Shown: positions 24,908 to 61,545 of the stretch, one piece after another
How the letters are laid out: every line of letters begins with the position of its first letter
How positions within the stretch are numbered: position 1 is the stretch's first letter
DNA from: Zopfochytrium polystomum
Lineage: Eukaryota > Chytridiomycota > Chytridiomycetes > Chytridiales > Chytridiaceae
DNA length: 64,000 nt
Assembly (NCBI GenBank): GCA_025765615.1
Contig: JAIVFJ010000024.1
Span: 248,001-312,000, forward strand
Reading direction: 5' to 3'
Notes under the pieces: generated by a model
What the model was told of the DNA's origin: nothing
The model's database searches: none
The model's input: the letters and a program-made list of their open reading frames with translations, nothing else
Made by a program: the position numbers and the translations under genes

Positions 24908-25833
24908 CCTCAGTGAGCCTGGACCTGGGAGTTTGGGTGCTTCTTCCTTGGGCAGTCCTTGACAGCGTGTTCCTTGGAGCCACAGTAGAAACACAGTCCC
25001 TGCTGGGCCCTCCTTGTTTTCTCCTCTTGGCTCAGAGGACCCTTAGGAAGTGTCTCAACTGCATCCACTTGCATGGGTTCAGGAACTGTAAGAGCTTGAG
25101 GGACTGGGGTAGGCCTTGATGTAGTTCCTACTTGTCTTTGCTTCAGCCTCTTGGAGTAGAGTCTGTTGTCAATCTTGATGGCAAGGAGAATGTACTCTTC
25201 CAAGGTCTCAGGGATGTGCAGAGACTGGGAGAGCCTGTCTTGGATAGACTCATGGAGACCATCATGGTGCAGCTCCATCAGAGCTGCATCATTGTATCCA
25301 GAGTCTCTGGCTAGTTGCTTGAATTGGTTGGTGTAGGCCACACAAGATTGCTTTCCTTGCTTGATATGCTTGAGCTTGGATCTTGCTGTCCAAGATGCGA
25401 AGGGGTCACCAAAGGTAGCTTCCAGCCCCTCCCAGACCCTTTGCAGGGTGGTGGGTGTGCTTGGGAGAGATCTGTACCATGATTGAGCTTGACCAGACAG
25501 GAGGGTGCTTGTGAAAAGAACCTTGACTTGCTCACTGGGAAATCTTGAAGGTTGGAGAAGGATGACATTCTCCACAGTGGCCATAAAGTTCCTAAGGTCT
25601 TTGGCCAGCCCAGTGAACTTGTCAGGGCTGGGAACCTTGGGCTCCCTTGCTTGGTTGGCTTGGGGCAGGGGAAGAGCTTGATGTTCTTGTTGGTGAAGTT
25701 GTTATTGAAGCTGGTGCTGCTGGTGAAGGACTTGTTCTTGACGTTGGTGTGTCTGTCTTGAAAGGGCTTGAAATTGGTCCATCAAGGCTTGGAAGGCAGT
25801 TGCATCAGGGAAGGTGTTGTTTGGCTCAGACAT
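24908..25833 (-). pseudogene. Gypsy Gag-like protein
   Basis: The start at 25833 (MSEPNNTFPDATAFQ) is followed by a Q-rich region and a frameshift near 25640. The capsid-like part reads KVPSPDKFTG, RNFMATVENVILLQPSRF, AQSWYRSLP and WEGLEATFGD, typical of the retrotransposon gag family, and ends with a CX2CX4HX4C zinc knuckle (CFYCGSKEHAVKDC). It packages element RNA in live copies. Confidence 0.85.
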
Positions 25834-25873: not shown

Positions 25874-26173
25874 TGTCAGGAACAGGGCAGGACAGGACAA
25901 GGCAGACAAGGAACTGAGAGGAGTGATGATTGTATTGGAAACAATAATTCACTTGAGGGATGGGACAGGTCCCCCATCCCCCTTTTATACCCTTTGAGAG
26001 TCTTCCTTGTCACTACTCAAAGAAAGTTCCAGAAAGAGCAATTAGTAATACAATGATACCAATGATACCAAAGACAACAAGAGACAAGTCAGGAAAGCAA
26101 AGAAGGTTCCAGAAGGTTCCATGAAGGAATGTTCTAGAAGGTATCAGAGGTTTCCAGAGGGTGATTCATAACA
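25874..26173 (-). repeat. 5' LTR of the Gypsy element (300 bp)
   Basis: In minus orientation it starts TGTTATGAATCACC and ends TTCCTGACA. The same termini are found at 26407-26804 and 38921-39276. It has a TATAAAAG motif in its middle. Confidence 0.85.
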
Positions 26174-26177
26174 AAAT

Positions 26178-26400
26178 GGGAATGACCCTGCAGGAATCAC
26201 CTTGCAGCAAGACAACGACCCCAAGCACACATCAAAATACACCAAGGGATGGCTGGTAGAGCAAGGATTTCGTTGTGTTGAGTGGCCAGCTCAATCTCCA
26301 GACCTGAATCCTATCAAGCATCTGTGGAGAGATTTGAAAACTTGGCCGAATTCCTATGAAAGACATCCAAGATCCAATGCAGAGCTCTGAGAGCGAATCC
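26178..26400 (+). pseudogene. Tc1 transposase, C-terminal catalytic part (broken)
   Basis: It reads LQQDNDPKHTSKYT and VEWPAQSPDLNPIKHLW. This is the second Asp and the DD34E region. The residue 34 positions after the Asp is Lys, not Glu, so the catalytic triad is broken. Frameshifts follow, then similarity resumes past the solo LTR at 26805 with IPPEVCQN. Confidence 0.8.
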
Positions 26401-26406
26401 GCTGCC

Positions 26407-26804
26407 TGTTATGAATCACCCTCTGGAAACCTCTGGAACCTTCTAGAACATTCCTTCATGGAACCTTCTGGAACCTTCTGGAACATTCTAGAACATTCCT
26501 TCATGGAACATTCTGGAACCTTCTGGAACCTTCTAGAACATTCCTTCATGGAACCTTGTGGAACCTTCTGGAACCTTCTTTGCTTTCCTGACTTGTCTTG
26601 TTGTCATTGGTATCATTGGTATCATTGTATTACTAATTGCTCTTTCTGGAACTTTCTTTGAGTCTTGACAAGGAAGACTCTCAAAAGGTATAAAAGGGGG
26701 ATGGGGGACCTGTCCCATCCCTCAAGTGAATTATTGTTTCCAATACAATCATCACTCCTCTCAGTTCCTTGTCTGCCTTGTCCTGTCCTGCCCTGTTCCT
26801 GACA
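26407..26804 (+). mobile_element. Solo LTR of the Gypsy family, with 5-bp TSD
   Basis: It begins TGTTATGAATCACC and ends CTGACA, with CTGCC on both sides (26402-26406 and 26805-26809). It carries internal CTGGAACCTTCTAGAACATTCC-type tandem repeats and a TATAAAAGG motif. It splits the transposase C-terminus. Confidence 0.88.
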
Positions 26805-27274: not shown

Positions 27275-27809
27275 ATGCTGGCGCCCCACTCGGCCCTCGT
27301 CTTCCTCTTCTTCACGCTCATTGTGTTCCACGCCACCCCGCAAATCGCCGCCCGTTCCCAGCGCAGCGGCGGCGGCGGCGGGGGCGGGGGCGGCGGCGGG
27401 GGCGGCGGGGGTGTTAGCGGCGGCGGCGGCGGGGGCGGCGGCGGCGGCGGCGGGGGTGTTAGCGGCGGCGGCGGACGCCCCCCCGCCTTCGGTGCGCAGG
27501 CGTTTACCAGCGGTACCAACGTCCCATTTGCCCCGGGTTCCCAAGGCAACAACTTGATCGCCCACGAGCTCACCCACGTGGTCCAGCAGCAACTAGGTGG
27601 GTGTGTGTGGGTGTCTATGCTTACCCCTGCCAGAAGGCCAGCCTCCACCCGTTTCACTCGCTCACTTTACACTCCATTTGCCACTCTCACTCACGCCGTC
27701 CTCCTCCTCCTCTCTCTTGAAACATTGCGCCGAAAACTCGACCGTTGCAGGACGCGCCCGATTCCGAGGCGCCAGAAAGTTCAAGGCGAATGCCAAGAAC
27801 TCTTCATGA
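27275..27809 (+). CDS. Small secreted protein with DUF4157-type HELTH motif
   Basis: ATG at 27275 opens a signal peptide (MLAPHSALVFLFFTLIVFHA, then TPQIAAR). A glycine tract of about 40 residues follows, broken by two VSGGG units. Then comes AFGAQAFTSGTNVPFAPGSQ and IAHELTHVVQQQ, the hallmark of DUF4157 (the eCIS-core/putative metalloprotease family) with HExxH zinc-ligand spacing. An intron (about 27597-27750) splits a Gly codon; exon 2 adds GRARFRGARKFKANAKNSS and a TGA at 27807. The total is about 127 residues. The N-terminal half of the usual domain (the VRVHT strand) is missing and the glycine tract stands in its place. The family is mostly bacterial, so transfer is possible. Function is unknown; peptidase activity is only a prediction from the motif. 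No other contractile-injection genes are nearby. Confidence 0.8.
27364..27475 (+). repeat. GGC/GGG glycine-codon tract
   Basis: Near-perfect GGC and GGG triplet runs encoding polyglycine in the DUF4157-type protein. Confidence 0.9.
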
Positions 27810-35408: not shown

Positions 35409-37385
35409 CTACGCCCACTCCCTTGGGTTCTTGAGCACCTGCACCATTTTCCACTCGTCCGACCCTTCCTCCGGCTCGTGCGCGTACTCCCACCTGGCCG
35501 TCAGCGGCAAACTGCACATGATGCTCTCTACCCTCGCGCCGGGGGTCGCCAGTCCAAACTTTGTCCCGCGGTCGTACACGAGGTTAAACTCTGCGTACCG
35601 TCCGCGCCGGATCTGCTGCCACGTCTTCATGGCGGGCGAGAACGGCGCGTCCTTCCGCCGCGCCACCACCGGCACGTACTGCGCCACAAACGCCCGCCCG
35701 CAGTCTTCGACGAACCGCGCGAGTTCTGGCGCGGGGCGTTCATCGAGGTCGTCGAAAAAGATGCCGCCCACCCCGCGGTGCTCGTCGCGGTGCGGCAGGT
35801 GGAAGTACGTGTCGCACCAGGTTTTGAAGCGCGGGTAGTACGACCGGTCGTGCTTGTCGCAAGCGGCCTTGATGACGGAGTGGAAATGCGCGGCGTCTTC
35901 TTCGAAAATGTATGAGGGAGTCTTGCGTTTTTTCGAGGTAGAAGTAGCCGTTAGCTTTTTTTTTTTCCGGCGAAAACCCCTCGCTTTTGTAATAAGAAAA
36001 ACAAGTTTTTTCCTCACCAAATCGCTTCCGCCGCCAAACCACCACGCGGCCGGCTCGTCTTTACCGTCCTCGCGCAGCTCAAAGTACCGATAGTTCAGGT
36101 GCGCGGTCGGCGCGTTCGGGTTGTGCGGGTGCACGACCAGCGAGATGCCCGCGACGAACAAGCGGTACGGTTTCGCCGGGTCCAGCTGCGCGTCGCCCTT
36201 GAGCGCTCGCGCGCGCATCTGCCGCAGCAAGGCCTCGGACGCCGGCGCGCCGCGCACAACCGACACCAGGACCGCAGCCTTTTCAAACACACGCCCGTCC
36301 TGCAGGATGCACGACAGCCCCGCGCCGTCCCCGTCCGGCCGCTCCCACGCGTCGCGGCGGAACTTTGCCGGCGACCGCGCCGGCGCCCCGTCGCCGCCGC
36401 CGGCAGCGGGCTCGGAGTCCTCCACGGCTTGCAGCGCATCGACGATTTCGGCCTGCAGCGACCGCACGAGGGCTTCCATTCGAACGCGCATGTCGGCGGT
36501 GTCGGATGGCGTCGCCGGCGCCGTTTCCGTCGTCGTTTTCGCTGCTGTGGCTGTCGTCGGCGCCGGGGTTGCGGATGGAGGTTCGGATGCTGGGTCGGAG
36601 GCGGTTTTGGCGGCGGCGATTATTACGCGCGCATTTGAAAAGTTGACGGTGGTGCTGTCGCTACTTTCAGCGGGTTGTGCCTTTGACACACCATGAGAAG
36701 ATGCGGTGCGTTAGACTCTTGTCCGAAAAGGTCGAGGGTTTGAATTATTGCTTTGTTACCTCGATGGACGATTTCCTGTGGTAAAGCTCAGCGCCGGCAA
36801 CGCCCACCGCAAAAAAAAAGACGAGGCCCAGTTTGCCGCGGGTGGTGAGTGTGCTTTGGGGCACCTCCGGGTGGTGGTGGTAGTGCTGGTAGTAGTAGTA
36901 GTCGTAGTAGTGTTCGTGTTGTTCTTGTTGTTGGGACGGATCTGTGCGGTAATAGTCGATCCGGCTTCCATCGCGGGAGTTGTAGCTGCTGTTGTTGTAG
37001 TGGTTATAGCCGTCGTATCTGCCAACACCATGGCTGTTGTGGTGGTGGTGGTAGTGGTACAGGCGTGGGTGGGCTGCTTCGGTGGGATTTACCGGGAGGC
37101 GGACCGTGAAGAGCGTGAGAACGTGCTACTCTTCGACGAAGAACAAGAAGAAGAAGAAGAAGAAGAAGAAGAAGAAGAAGGTGGTGGAGCAGGAGAAGAA
37201 GAAGAGGACCCCCAATTCAGGGAAAGCACGTTACCAAGGGTAGCGGCGGCGGCGCCGCGAGAGCGGAGAGGGCGCAGCAGTAGCCGCAGCTGCACCTGCA
37301 GCGGTGCGGGGCAAGTGGAGGCGGCGGCGACGGTGGCCCTTGCGGCGGCGACCGAACGGGGCAGCGCGGATGCGGCGACAATCAT
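35409..37385 (-). CDS. HEM13: Coproporphyrinogen III oxidase (oxygen-dependent)
   Basis: It converts coproporphyrinogen III to protoporphyrinogen IX by O2-dependent oxidative decarboxylation. The secure part is 35409-36491: MRVRMEALVRSLQAEIVDAL, then GAGLSCILQDGRVFEKAAV, SLVVHPHNPNAPTAHLNYRY, WWFGGGSDL, joined over an intron at about 35935-36020 to TPSYIFEEDAAHFH, then CDTYFHLPHR, GVGGIFFDDL, RRGRYAEFNLVYDRGTKFGL and ARVESIMCSLPLTARWEY. This is about 330 residues, the usual core length. Upstream, 37385 gives a basic Ala/Arg leader (MIVAASALPRSVAAARATV) and 36755-36840 encodes a hydrophobic helix (KLGLVFFFAVGVAGAELY) that splices in phase to AQPAESS. Together these resemble a bipartite intermembrane-space signal. 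The first join could not be placed in frame, so the 5' exons are tentative. Confidence 0.85.
37146..37180. repeat. (GAA)n microsatellite
   Basis: GAA/AAG triplet run inside the presumed first intron of the coproporphyrinogen oxidase gene. Confidence 0.9.
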
Positions 37386-49188: not shown

Positions 49189-52100
49189 ATGAAGATAGCA
49201 GACGTAAGCGATACCGTGGAATTACTCTTCCCAAGATTTTCTTCGCAGACGCTGATGCCATCGTTTAAAAGGTGAACGAAGCGATTGATGCAAAAAACTG
49301 GGAGTTGGCCGCCTCTCGTGTCGATGAGCTCCTAGTGGAGGACTCCCTTGACGATGAGACGCTTGCATTGGCTTGCTATGCCCAGTGCCAGATTCTCTTG
49401 AATTCCCGCGGTTCCAACGACTCGGCGACCCGTCATCCTGGGAGCCCTACAGCGCAATCGTCGCCAAACCCGCAAGGGGAGCCGAGAGCGACGGCCGGCA
49501 GCCGTCCGGAGAAGGTGGTTCGAAACGCGGTGGCTTACCTGATGCGGACGCTTGAAATTTCGGTCGAGAAAATGATGGAAAAGATCGCCGAAAAGGCGGT
49601 AATGACCTTTTTGGACCTGACAAAGAACCTCTTTGAAGACGACAGCACCGCAATGGTCTTTTTGATTCCGCTGTCGAACGTTGTCTCTGCGCTGCAAAAA
49701 CTCAATCACGAGGACCGCGTTTTGAGAATCACGCTCCACCTTCTTCTTTCGCGAGTGCTGACTTGCTACATCGAAAAGTACAGCAAGAAGCAAGAGAAAG
49801 GAGATCCTTGGCCCTCGGCGGAAGCTCTTGCAAAGTACTGCAAAGATGCGCCAGAACAGGCGTTGAAACACTTGGAGTCTGCTATGAAATTGATCAAAGA
49901 TCGCCCCGCATTACGTTACTTGCTGTTTCAAGTCACCAAAGTGTATCTCAAGAACCTCTCCGTTCAGCCCTCGAACAAATCGACAAAGTTTGAAAACCTT
50001 CTGAAAGAGGAAAGCAGCCTTCGAGTATTCATCCAACTCAGCATCATGGAGAACGGTCAGATAAACCAGTCTGACGCAAAGGGGCTGTTATCGGAGGTCG
50101 AAAAGCTTTGCGAGACCTGCGGGAGCGCAGAGGAGACGTTGTCTATTCTGGTTGATTTTGCAGAGCAATGCATCAGGCAGGGCCTCACCGACATTGCGAA
50201 GAGATTTTTGGATAAATCTATGCTCATGAACGGAAGCACCCAGCTATGCCACCGACGGCAACTGGTTCAGTTGCAGCTGGAACTGGAGCGAATCAGAGCG
50301 TCGGCTTCCCTTGTTGCAGAAAGCGATGCGCAACACGCGTTCATGAGTGCGGCCGCTGCTTTGATGAAAGCCCTCGACCTGGATTGCGATTCTGCCATCA
50401 TACACGCGACCTGCTTGCAGATGTTTTCTGCCTTCATCTCTTGGAAGGAGGCAAACAAGTTTCACCCACAGTGGTTCACGGCCACTGTAAAAAGTATAGC
50501 GGACGCTCTAACGCAGCGACCAGGACTAGAAGAGTCCAAACGATGCGTAATCGAGTACGAGCTGGCCAAGTGCTACGAGGAGCAAAATGTCTTTTCACTG
50601 GCGGCTGCCCACGCGAAGAAGGCTCTGGTATTCTGCAGCCAAGCCGAGCTTCAGGGACCCATTGAAATAATGATTCAAAAGCTGTCAACAAAGGCCAAGG
50701 CCTTCGAAGGAAAGCTTGCTCCAGAATTACAAGGTGGGGCGATTCTAGAGGAATAATATTTGAATCTGCTGATCGCATTTTGAAAAATAACTCTGTAGCG
50801 CTTTCACTGGTTGATCAGGCGAAAAGCGTTTCCCAATCAGGCGTCGCTCTGAAGTTGTTGGAGAATGCAATAAGGACCATCATCCCAGTAAGACACTCTC
50901 CGTTCACAAAAGCTTGTTCCAAATTACCGCCATTAGGACCATGAGTTCATCTCTCCGGCAGCCGCGGCGGAGAGCTCAGATCCTGTCCAAGCACTCCTGG
51001 GGATCGAATACCACCTCACATTCGACAATATCGTTCTGGGATCATCAAAAGTGAAACAGCTGATACTCGTGGCATTGAACGACATCATGATTCACTCCAG
51101 GCAACTCGCACTCAGAGTTGAAACAAAAGGAAACTCAAACCTGAGGAGGCTGTGGAAAGCAGCGTGGGATTGCAGTAGCTACATTCTATGCGAGGCGTGG
51201 GTCGGAGTCACGGTTGAAAAAGCGCTCCTTCGAATTCAGGCCGAAGCCAACACCATCCGCGGTGAGGCCCTTACCTTTTTCCTCAGAGTCTCAGATTGTA
51301 CTGCGGAGGCTGAGACAGAACGAGGGGCTGAGGAGCTCCAACGAAAGGAAGCAGCTATTCTCTCATCCATTTCGCAGTCAATATCTATATGCCAACAAAT
51401 ATCCGATGTCTCTATGCTGGAGTCAAACGCCTCGTTGCTGACCGGTCACTATTTCGAAACGCCGGATGCTCTCAAACAAAGCGCAGCCGGTGCATGTGTC
51501 GACGTTTTCCAGAAACTCTACGAAGCGATGGCATCGACCGGTTTAAAATCCTCGGACTTGTTTCTTCAAGTTTGCCTCGGCTACGTTCAGGCATTAAAGG
51601 ATTTGCACGACGTGGCCGCGCCGTCGACAACGCCGGGTGATGACAGATCGAAAGCGAAGGGGTCGGTGGCAAAGGCCGCCCCAGCAAAGGCTGCTCCAGG
51701 AAAAGATCGAGAGAACCTCAAACTCGCCGAAGAAGTGTTTACGGTCGCGTTTGCTTCGCCGTCAAATCGCTACGATCTGAAACTGGCCTTGTTCGAGCTC
51801 AGGTCCACTTTCAGAGGCGCCGCGGGCTCGCCAGCAAGCGAGAGCGATCCCTTGCTGAAACTATTTGCGACGCTCGAGGCGATGGACTCGCAAAAAAAGC
51901 CCACCCGAGAAGATTTGGACTCGGCCGTCGCGGAGCTGTCGCGGTCCGCCGGAAAACTACCGAACGAGCTCGCAATCACCCTGTGGCTTAAATTAATACG
52001 CTTTTGCAATCTTGCAGAGCAATACCTTCTCGCTTTCTCGTGCATCCGCGCCCTGTTTGGGCGGATACCATCGGACCTTCCCGCAAAAGCGGCCGCCAAG

Positions 52101-55100
52101 AAATGCAATACAGACGCCGGAGTTCTGATGGAGTGCGAGCTTTTGTATGGGCGAATCATTTTCTCGCTTATGACTCAAAAAACCCCTTACGGGGAATATC
52201 AGGTCATGAGATCAGACGCGTTGCTTCACTTTTGCAACGCCATAGAATATGGCTCTTTATCGAGCAGCAGTATGGCCCAAATTGAAACTTGCCTCCTTCT
52301 GTTTCGCGACGTGAGCGCGGGATCGAAACTTAGCCAGTTGGGTGAAAATTATGCTCTGTTTCTTGAGCGAATAATTCGGTCACTGCAAGGCTGCAATTTC
52401 ATGTCAACCGCCCGGTCGGAGGAATTTGTGAACGCATTAATTTTTCTCAGCGATCGCTGCCTCGAGTACTTCTATTTCAAAAGAAACTTTCAAGCAGGCA
52501 CACGACTGTTGGATAGACTGTTCCGCATCTTGCCGCCTGCGTATCATCGTATGCTTTGGGAGAAAAAAATTCAAATTTTGTCCGATAGTGGCATGCAAAT
52601 CACATCGACTGTCTTAGGGGAGGCAAGCATTGAAGTTCAATCAAACTTGTTAGTTTCGAACGGCTCTCCTTTTCGTTCTAAATTCCTTTCGCTTTAGGTG
52701 GTACAAACTTGCACTTAAATCGAACGGAAATCAACATAGGCGGTCGCACCTCGAGAACGTTCTCCAGCTTGTACGACTTCCTGGTTTTGAACTCAAGTTT
52801 ATTGAATTCGGACTCGAGTTCGTTAAATGGTTGTTGACTGAGACGGATGAGCTTGACAAAGCGAAGAATCTTCTTTCCGAGGTCAAGGTCACGCTCAACA
52901 CAGCTCGGTCCCATTCTGTGAACGACCAGATTTCGCAATTGAAGGTTCTTTGCATTGAGCTTGATATTTCGGAGACCCGGTTGGCGAAGCTGTCGTTCGT
53001 GGAGAAAGCCTCTGCTTTCTTGACTCAGATCATAGAGGGAATTTTTTTGACGGCACAACCCTCCGACTCTTCGACACGTTCTGGACACTCTTCGGCAAAG
53101 AAAAGCAAGGACAAGGAGCAACCTGTCGAAGCCGAGCCTTGTACAATGCCGGCAAGGGACAAATGGGTGGACTTTGAATGGCCGCAATCCGTCAAGGCTT
53201 CTTTCCAATCAACAACCGATCCTCGGTACCTTTCTGCCGCCCGCAGCTCTGAAATTAGGAGCGTTGTGAGTTGCACCCTGCGAATCATCTTGGCGCACTT
53301 TGAGCTTGGTCGATTCCCAGAAAGTATGGCACTCATCAGCCTCCTAGAATTTCTGTCGGAAATTTGTTCGGCAGACGGCGTTCCTATGGAAAGCCTGCGC
53401 CATCTTTGCGCAACACTCTTTTCGCACGCTGCAATTAAAATCGGATCCTGGACTCGTGCTGTCGCAAAGCTCTTTTCCGGCTCTCCACCGCAAAATCTAA
53501 GTGTGAAAGATACGGAGCGGGTTCTCTGCGATATTGGTGTACCTGTAAATACGCTTTCCTTCTCCCTGCAAAAGAGCAAGATTCTGTACGATCGCAGTGA
53601 TTACAGCCAGGCTTTGGATGCGCTTGCTCTCTCGTTCGATTCGGCAGAGGATAGTGACCTTCTCTCAAAAATCGAGAGCGCTTTCCTCCTCGACCTCCTC
53701 ACTGAAACGCTCGAAAAGACAAAGAGCGCGGTTCAAATAGCGAAACTCGGAGGTGTACTTTGCCGGAATATTCTTCCGAGGTATGCGGGAAAGCTACGAA
53801 AATCTTTCGAGCACACTCACCGGTCAGAACTGAAGAGCATTTACCTCTCGGCTCTGGAAGGCACGCATCTGTCGATTCCCTCCAAGGCGGTTTTACACGA
53901 AGAGCTGTTTTACCTTGCAAAAGCGGAGAATACAAACGAATCGGCACTGGGCCATTTTAAGCTGGCTGTCGAATATTACAAAGAATCCGAATCGTTTGCG
54001 TCGGTGGTTCCAATTACCATCGACCTGGCCAAATTTTATTTGCAAGAGATTCCTCATTACGCGCCCATCACGGAGCGAAAACATCAGGAGGCCGCTCTGG
54101 CCGCAGCAAGGGTTCTTCAAGAGTGCAATCAAAACATTCAAGGCTTAATTTCCAATGGTACTTCATTTGACCCGGACTTGGTACACTCGCTTCAACTGTG
54201 TTTCGGAAATGTTTTAATTCACATTGCGCAATCTCCTCAAGTGGAAAAGCCTGAAGATGTGCACCTGGCGGTCAAGATGATCATGGAAGACATCTTCCCA
54301 GGCGAATGCGAAAAGTCTGTGCGTATGCAATGGAATGACCTGCAGAGCGAAGCCTTAAAAATGGCAGTTTCACTCGTACGACCGATCTACTCCAGTTTAG
54401 GTGGTAAACATCTGCCTGTGGCCTGTCGCATCCTTGCCATTGCTTCGCGCTTGACCGAGCGACTGGGATTGACTGACTTGATGGCTCAGCTCAACCCACC
54501 GACGAAAAGCAAGAGCCAAGAGGCATTTTCCCAACGAGGGCTGCGCCATGCGCTAAAGCATCAGAACATCGACGCGATTGAGTATTGCTGCGAGGACCTT
54601 CTTCTGCACACCGCGGTTGGCGGACACACGGACTCGGTTGTATTCGGGCTATTGAGTCTGTGGCAAAGCTGTAGAAATGCACGGCTTCTCGCTTCCCTCG
54701 TGAATCGATACAATTTAGGTCGAGGTAATCACCGCTGCCCTGGAACAGGCGAGACGCACCATCGTTATTTTCTTTGAATGACTGACGACTTTGCCCTAGA
54801 CTCCCAGATTCATAACGACTACATGAACGAAAGTGGTCTTCACCACCGCAGTGTCCTTCAACCTCTCAATCCCGATCTACTGCAAAATCTTCCGAAAGGA
54901 GTTCGTTTACTCGTTCTGCAGCATTCTTCTGACAAGCAGACGCTATTTTGTGGGCTTCTCAGTCGAAGCAAGGAAACCGCGAAGCACAAGAGCTCGATCG
55001 ATGACTTCACCTTTGCAACAACTAGATATGCGGTGTCTTTCAGAGACCTTAGGGCCATGCAGGACTCAATGTGCACGGCTGTGAGTAATAATCGTCACGG

Positions 55101-58900: not shown

Positions 58901-61545
58901 ATGTCCGACCTCCCCCCCAAGTACGAGCTGTTCGCATCCGCCGGCAGCAGCTCCGCTGGCAGCGCGCTTGGCGCTGTTGCGCAAGGAGTCCTGACGCCAA
59001 TCGTTTCGCACACGGTTCTTGATGGCAAAAACCTCGCCTTGGTGACGCTGCAGAGCAACGATGCCAGCCCAACAGGGCGGTCTCCCATCGATGTTGTCTG
59101 CGTGGGTAGGTACATTTTCTTGCCGCTCTGTCGCTACATGCCTTCAGTAACGCGCGACGAACCGTGTGCTCGCTAGTCGACCTTTCGGGATCCATGGACG
59201 CCGCCGCAACCCTCACGACCGGTGGAACTGGCACCAAAGAGGATTCCGGCTTGACCGTCCTTGACGTCGGTATGTAGTGCCGAAGCGTGTCGACCAAGCA
59301 TTTAATCGCTCGCTCAGTTAAGCACGCCGTGAAGACTGTCATTATGGCACTGGAACCGAACGACCGGTAACAATTAGGATTGCCGGCACAACGTGCGTTG
59401 ATTTTAACTTCCATGACTCAGCCTCGGGATCGTTTCGTTTCACGACTCGGCGGAAATTCAGATGCCTTTGACTTCGATGGACAAGATCAATCGAGAGGCT
59501 GCTTGCACGAAAGTGACCAGCCTTGAGACGCTGGGATCGACAAATATTTGGGCGGGGCTTGACTTTGCTCTTGACCTGATCTATGAGCAACCTTGCCCGG
59601 ACTCGAGACTCCGTGCTGTGCTCCGTAAGAACGAAATTCTAACGTTTGAGCGCTGACGCTGGCGCAATATATTTTCTCGTAGTTTTTACCGACGGACAGC
59701 CGAATGTCAGGCCTCCTGTTGGAGAAGTTTCCATGTTGGAAAAGCGAAAAGCTCAGAAGTTCAACAAGAAACTTCCCTGCATCATCAGCACCTTCGGATT
59801 TGGAACCAGTCTGGACAGTGGACTTCTTTCAGATATAGCTTCCGTTGGAATGGGAGGATTTTCCTTCATTCCAGACGCAGGTACGTGATTCGTGGTTAAT
59901 GACTTTCAAGTCCTGAACTCTCTGGCCACGCTAGGCTTTGTCGGAACTGTGTTTGTGGATGCGGTGTCGAACCTGCTGTAAGCCATTTAAACTTTGCTAC
60001 AGTTTATGCTCAACATTGATTTCCAGCGCTGCAACGGCGAAAGATGTAGTTGTGACAGTAGAAGGCGTTCGTGGAGCTAGAGTTCAGCTCAAAGATGATA
60101 CCACGTCCGTTGGAGGCCACTACCGTCTGGGATCGCCGATTGTCCCAACTATCACATTCAACAACAACCCCTACGGATCTGACACCAGGACCTACGGTAG
60201 CTCAACTAATCTCCAGACGGACTCGCACATTCGTTTTGGATTTGGTTCATACATGGCGCCTCAGTCGAAAGACCTCGTATTTGTCATTGAAAACATGCCA
60301 TCTTCCGGCGAGTACCTGAGGGTTACTGTCGAGCACGTTCCTGTCCGCGCTCCATTCGGATGCGCCCCGGTGGAAGCGGTGGTGCAACAATACCAGCGAA
60401 AAGTCAATGAACCCGAGGTTCAGGTTCAATGGGCGCGGCTGCGAGCTGTGGACGCCATTTCCTCGGCGAGACTGCTGGCGGGCCAGAAAAAATCGAACGA
60501 TGCTGCCGCCCTTGTCGATCAATGTATCAAAGATCTCGAGGGGGTTGAGCATGATGGCAAACGCGACGATCGAATAAACGATCTACTCATTGATATCAAA
60601 GGCCAAGTCAAGGAAGCCATAAGCGACAAGTACATCCTCACTTGGGGGGGCCACTATCTTCTTTCTCTGGCTGGGGCGCACAGGATGCAGGTAATACACC
60701 CGTCGCTTGCGGTGGGAAGTCTTGGTAACGTGTTCTTGGTGTAGCAATGCAACAACTTCAAGGATCCCGGAATTCAGCGGTACACTGGTGGCACCTTCGA
60801 CACTCTGCGTGATGAAATCAACGAAATATTCCTCAAACTTCCTGCGCCAAAACCACGAGTTCGTCCTCACAGCGGTCGCTCCAGCAATAGTAATCTGTCA
60901 GCTCCAGTCAGCATGTCTCGGTTCCACAATCGGAGCAATCCTTGCTTCGGAGGCTCGAACAAGGTCTCAGTGCTCTTGGGCAAGAGCAAAGAGGGGAAGA
61001 ATGTGTTCCGAAATGTTCCCGTTGCGAAACTTCGAAGAGGCGACCGTGTTCGCATTTCCACAACCACGGAGCAAACTGCGTCTGTCAGATGTGTTCTTGA
61101 AACATACGTACCGCATTCACAGGATCCGCCCACCTTGGTGCAGTTGCAGTCAGGACTAGTCATCACCCCTGGACACCCCATTCATTTTGATGGCCAATGG
61201 ATGTACCCGGCGGACGCTTTCGGTGCGGAATACGTGACGTCAACCTTGAACAGAGTGGTGTACTCTCTGCTGCTTGAAAGCGACGACGACCCATCAAAGA
61301 AGTACGCCTCCACTGTGGTCGTGGCGGGTGTGGAATGCGTTACTCTCGCTCATGGCTTGGAGGGCGAAATTCTCTCCCATGAGTACCTGGGAACAGATCG
61401 TGTTGTCAAGGATTTGCAACTTCTTCCTGGCTTCAACTCCACTTCTGGGCGTGTTCTGTGCAGTGGAGTGAGGAGGGACGCTGTTTCTGGCCACGTTGTC
61501 GGATTGGTTGCGCCGGCCACCTTGATTTCACAGGCACAGTTGTAA
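58901..61545 (+). CDS. vWA-Hint protein (Vwaint/Hint family)
   Basis: ATG 58901 begins MSDLPPKYELFASAGSSSAG. A von Willebrand A domain follows with MIDAS VVDLSGSMD, then LGIVSFHDSAEI, LGSTNIWAGLDFAL and VFTDGQPNVRPP. The middle (AATAKDVVVTVEGVRGARVQ to QWARLRAVDAI) is the Vwaint-type region. From about 60930 comes a Hedgehog/intein (Hint) module: NPCFGGSNKVSVLLG with the first-position Cys, LRRGDRVRIST, and the TxxH block VITPGHPIHFDGQW, ending in VECVTLAHG, SHEYLGTD and VVKDLQLLPGF. No residues typical of C-terminal intein splicing are seen, so any reaction would be N-terminal cleavage or the fold is structural. Seven or eight introns. AATAAA at 61583. Exact cellular role unknown. Confidence 0.88.

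Follow-up and report, generated by a model that had tools for sequence, protein, structure and literature searches.

We analyzed a 64,000-nucleotide stretch of contig JAIVFJ010000024.1 from the chytrid Zopfochytrium polystomum (here called the window) and found that a small predicted gene at positions 27275–27809 encodes the second half of an eCIS_core domain (PF13699, DUF4157). Our reading, to which we assign a probability of roughly 0.6, is that a transferred bacterial eCIS_core fragment sits behind a leader and a glycine tract in a single-copy predicted gene, and that the product is not a working peptidase. This reading concerns the origin and anatomy of the gene, and it overlaps with three others discussed below, namely that the gene is a dead fragment, a non-catalytic secreted protein, or an active peptidase. 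As presented in parts of two published reports, DUF4157 marks the cargo of contractile injection systems, where its role is unresolved (PMC8213781, PMC11297309).

Half of an eCIS_core domain in a chytrid genome

The open reading frame, hydrophobic leader, glycine tract, and FGAQAFTSGTNVPFAPGSQGNNLIAHELTHVVQQQ of the original prediction are all in place. A PF13699 profile search, proposed at that time as a check, gave the spliced protein 41.6 bits (E 1.4e-10), well over the curated cut-off of 22 bits. Across the whole genome (80,164,350 bases), this was the single PF13699 match at E 0.001, with an E value of 9e-9, and none of 14 control genomes gave one. The match is far above chance. It begins at position 35 of the 79-position profile, so only the HELTH half of the domain is present, as had been predicted. 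A profile built on the N-terminal half found no remnant of that half in the window (best E 3).

Like other members of the PF13699 family, the fungal protein keeps AFTxG and AHELTHVVQQ, the latter invariant in an 11-row alignment. Unlike them, it lacks positions 1–34, has a shorter loop, and lies behind a leader and polyglycine in a fungus. The first half of the domain holds a VxVH-like strand that is kept by 99 of 100 testable prokaryotic relatives. The fungal loop has 16 residues, 6 fewer than the 22 seen in 91 of 102 prokaryotic domains. A short C-terminal end also occurs among bacterial forms: of 111 prokaryotic domains, 5 end 30 or fewer residues after HExxH. The missing part is the N-terminal half only. 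A half domain with a 6-residue loop loss and an expanded simple repeat could be a dead gene fragment, neither transcribed nor translated, and a transposon inverted repeat lies 470 nt from the start codon. We regard this as a real possibility that falls short of an even chance, as the matched part contains no stop or frameshift and the family core is intact.

Next to the transferred-fragment reading stand the relatives of the core, to which about 38 residues can be aligned. The collections searched were prokaryotic or of unnamed source; they serve to locate close relatives and say nothing on absence from eukaryotes. At least 589 stretches in prokaryote genomes matched the search pattern, 267 of them encoding a relative. 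The best 80 of these 267 were kept, and all are prokaryotic, with best-segment identities of 43–66% (from a prokaryote-only collection). Among plasmids, 67 records matched with E ≤1; viral contigs gave 3 relatives among 59 pattern matches, and the phage search gave no relatives. One protein search returned 1 match with E ≤0.001 among 55 candidates. Another returned 31 matches with E ≤10 among 35 candidates; these were mostly weak (best 2.5e-3), and all 31 carry PF13699. In two proteins, P0007 and P0005, eCIS_core begins near the AFT motif, which may reflect a genuine half domain, a start called too late, or the end of a contig. In the part of the DUF4157 literature covered here, we met no report of a eukaryotic DUF4157 gene.

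We also looked for further copies within the genome. Among the best candidates scored, with simple repeats skipped, neither the core nor the leader nor the intron plus exon 2 turned up a second time. The second match in one copy search was the presumed intron and exon 2 of the same locus, in the exon-2 frame, and that in the leader search covered 43 bp in the 5′ region, which is rich in CA/CT.

Gene anatomy and the intron model

The features of the gene and of the adjoining transposon island are listed in Table 1. The predicted signal peptide stands insofar as the N-terminus is hydrophobic, with a maximum of 3.16 at residues 8–18 (11-residue mean); its assignment as a signal peptide is a call from hydropathy. 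The glycine count, originally about 40, is corrected to 32. These are arranged in runs of 15, 13, and 4 with two VS pairs between the runs, and a 45-nt direct duplication (96% identity) lies within the tract. Since 3 other GGN runs of 8 codons or more lie elsewhere in the window, such repeat expansion is no peculiarity of this gene.

Table 1. Coordinates in the window of the eCIS_core gene and the adjoining mobile-element features
Feature	Position	Strand	Details
Predicted signal peptide	27275..27352	+	About residues 1–26; predicted from hydropathy
Polyglycine tract	27368..27475	+	32 Gly in 36 residues
Second half of PF13699 eCIS_core	27485..27595	+	Profile positions 35–77 of 79
HELTH, an HExxH zinc-binding motif	27563..27577	+	Sequence reading
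Probable intron, GTGGGT...TTGCAG	27597..27750	+	154 nt; model
Probable exon 2, basic tail and stop	27751..27809	+	Frame given by intron model; first codon split by intron
Retrotrans_gag frame	24910–25584	-	Pfam
DDE_3 transposase fragment	26202–26390		Pfam; inside long inverted repeats ending 26804

The claim that the gene contains an intron holds up as a plausible GT-AG model. Splicing from the GT at 27597 to the AG ending at 27750 would give a protein of 126 aa whose stop ends at 27809; the unspliced frame stays open to 27886 and encodes 203 aa. This intron ranked second by profile score among 116 enumerated GT-AG combinations, and of the 15 listed it is the only one whose acceptor ends in GCAG. 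An alternative intron, 27603/27768, scores higher (52.1). GC content at third codon positions (GC3) is 0.55 in the presumed intron and read-through (51 codons) versus 0.90 in the leader (31 codons) and 0.77 in the core (39 codons). Donors read by eye in neighboring genes were GTAGGA, GTAAGT, GTGAGC, GTGAGG, GTAGTT, and GTTAGT, and GTGGGT is absent from these. We consider the 27597..27750 intron likely but unproven.

Homology of the tail was tried as proof of splicing and rejected. The spliced tail scored 50.9 bits, compared with 46.9 bits for no tail and 45.5 bits for the unspliced form. However, 97 of 500 shuffled tails scored at least as well as the real one, and with the first Gly held fixed this rose to 277 of 500. 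Because these shuffles show a composition effect, tail homology was dropped as evidence for splicing.

The same control bears on a group of stand-alone eCIS_core proteins of 123 aa, encoded at L016:2341-2709 and L046:2791-3159 in Rhodobacteraceae/Pseudorhodobacter metagenome-assembled genomes, together with the similar protein P0010. These have a lysine-rich N-terminus, a shortened loop, and the ending GKALTSK. They resemble the fungal protein in their length, in their shortened loop (18 residues), and in a short basic tail that ends 21 residues after HELTH. In contrast, they have the full domain (profile positions 1–78 or 2–78, 82–89 bits), no leader, and no polyglycine. Given the shuffled-tail control, the similarity in length and tail may be coincidence. 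We did not adopt these proteins as donor, as loop and length are similar but there is no tail signal, and they serve as a lead. Inspection by eye, rather than by profile search, of the 5,676 bases around L016 and the 5,462 bases around L046 revealed no eCIS-like genes.

If the gene is expressed, it could encode a working non-catalytic protein, small, glycine-rich, and either secreted or part of the cell wall, in which the HELTH helix is kept, for instance, to bind metal or to interact with bacteria or a host. The signal-like leader and open frame, the higher GC3 of leader and core than of the presumed intron, a TATAAA about 50 nt upstream of the ATG (from reading the sequence), and the retained AHELTHVVQQ are consistent with such a product. 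Even so, we judge it rather unlikely, as there is one gene in one genome with no paralogue found, and the slippage-like glycine tract has its counterparts in the other GGN runs of the window.

Zinc-peptidase fold and catalysis

The predicted fold of a full-length bacterial relative was good, and its best structural alignment was to the zinc-peptidase domain of VgrG2b. No confident fold was predicted for the fungal exon-1 product. Foldseek alone returned nothing at E ≤0.001. When the fungal protein was compared by sequence with solved structures, engineered chains led the best 60 of 176 rows through the glycine tract; also among these best 60 was the metalloproteinase 7z6t, with an E value of 0.062 and a match over residues 7–107. 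P0001 had no match to solved structures by sequence, and with profile A1 there were 3 rows, all weak, aureolysin (E 0.91) among them.

VgrG2b binds zinc through H935, H939, and E983, and its toxicity requires the HExxH motif, as described in the part of PMC6899460 used here. The fungal protein shares HExxH with gluzincins of the VgrG2b type. The C-terminal metallopeptidase domain of VgrG2b (PDB 6h56) differs in belonging to a type VI secretion system toxin with E983 as its third ligand, whereas the fungal product lacks the first half and is predicted to lack a third ligand as well. The 25 residues that follow HELTH in the spliced product include no E, D, or H. Without splicing, the 203-aa form has a Glu 48 residues beyond the second His (counted by hand), which we regard as chance. 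The absence of a third ligand, like the prediction on activity below, hinges on the intron model. The case for an active secreted zinc metallopeptidase would draw on a proper HExxH and on the zinc binding and motif-dependent toxicity of VgrG2b, the closest solved fold to the full-length relative. With half of the domain gone, the remaining exon-1 product not confidently folded, and a 25-residue tail lacking the third ligand, peptidase activity appears very unlikely. The zinc-peptidase idea in the original prediction is weakened on the same two points, the lacking half domain and, under the intron model, the absent ligand.

Genomic setting and origin

The genome contains 21 exon-level matches to Chitin_synth_1 and 8 matches to Radial_spoke, of which 7 are above cut-off. 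Based on these chitin synthase and radial-spoke matches, the host appears to be a fungus with flagellar genes. Contamination or misassembly would account for a family described from prokaryotes (parts of PMC8213781 and PMC11297309) appearing here, but the gene is embedded 27 kb deep in 64 kb of a single contig, eukaryote-type and retroelement frames flank it on either side, and none of the 12 neighboring frames scanned with Pfam matches an injection-system family. We consider this the least probable of the alternatives and barely credible. Phage_sheath_1, the sole injection-system family searched in the genome, had 0 matches.

The transposon island described next to the gene was confirmed by the Retrotrans_gag frame and by the DDE_3 fragment within inverted repeats. 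The latter is enclosed by a foldback element (25874–26804) with 209-nt arms that are 98% complementary, plus inner arms, one of which holds CTGGAACCTT-type tandem repeats. Elsewhere in the window, a coproporphyrinogen III oxidase gene (35409–36689, minus strand) has an in-frame insertion resembling a read-through intron with donor GTGAGG. Two frames at 59938–61545 carry Vwaint and Hint-type Vint, as in a VWA/Hedgehog-intein-like protein. A large gene spans several frames at 49272–54777; an initial identification as the ciliary protein CFAP46 was set aside in favor of the radial-spoke matches, as two of its frames had no match to Pfam or the PDB.

The original prediction also proposed a domesticated transferred domain with a new N-terminus. 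A half domain in a eukaryotic genome, close prokaryotic relatives, and a replaced N-terminus agree with this in part; domestication and the direction or date of transfer go beyond what these features show. Homology, truncation, single copy number, and the eukaryotic setting are direct results, whereas the transfer and its direction, secretion, the lack of catalysis, and the way in which the first half disappeared are inferred. In the scenario we favor, a bacterial eCIS_core (DUF4157) gene or a piece of it would have entered the fungus. The first half of the domain would then have been lost, with a signal peptide and glycine tract taking its place, and GGC-codon slippage and duplication may have lengthened the tract. 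The product, if made, would be a secreted, disordered, glycine-rich chain with one HELTH helix at its end, and this helix might at most hold zinc loosely with its two histidines. Since it has neither the first-half strand and helices nor the third ligand, the product would not be expected to act as a peptidase.

A bolder version of this scenario is that, in a flagellated fungus, the zinc-helix half of a bacterial injection-cargo domain has become a functional secreted protein, so that half an eCIS_core works alone, outside injection systems and the zincin fold. We hold this to be improbable. A eukaryotic copy cut to its HExxH half would offer a naturally occurring deletion experiment for the domain. 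Were the gene expressed, bacterial injection cargo would have been put to new use by a fungus; otherwise, the gene would be a fossil of bacterial DNA that reached a fungal nucleus.
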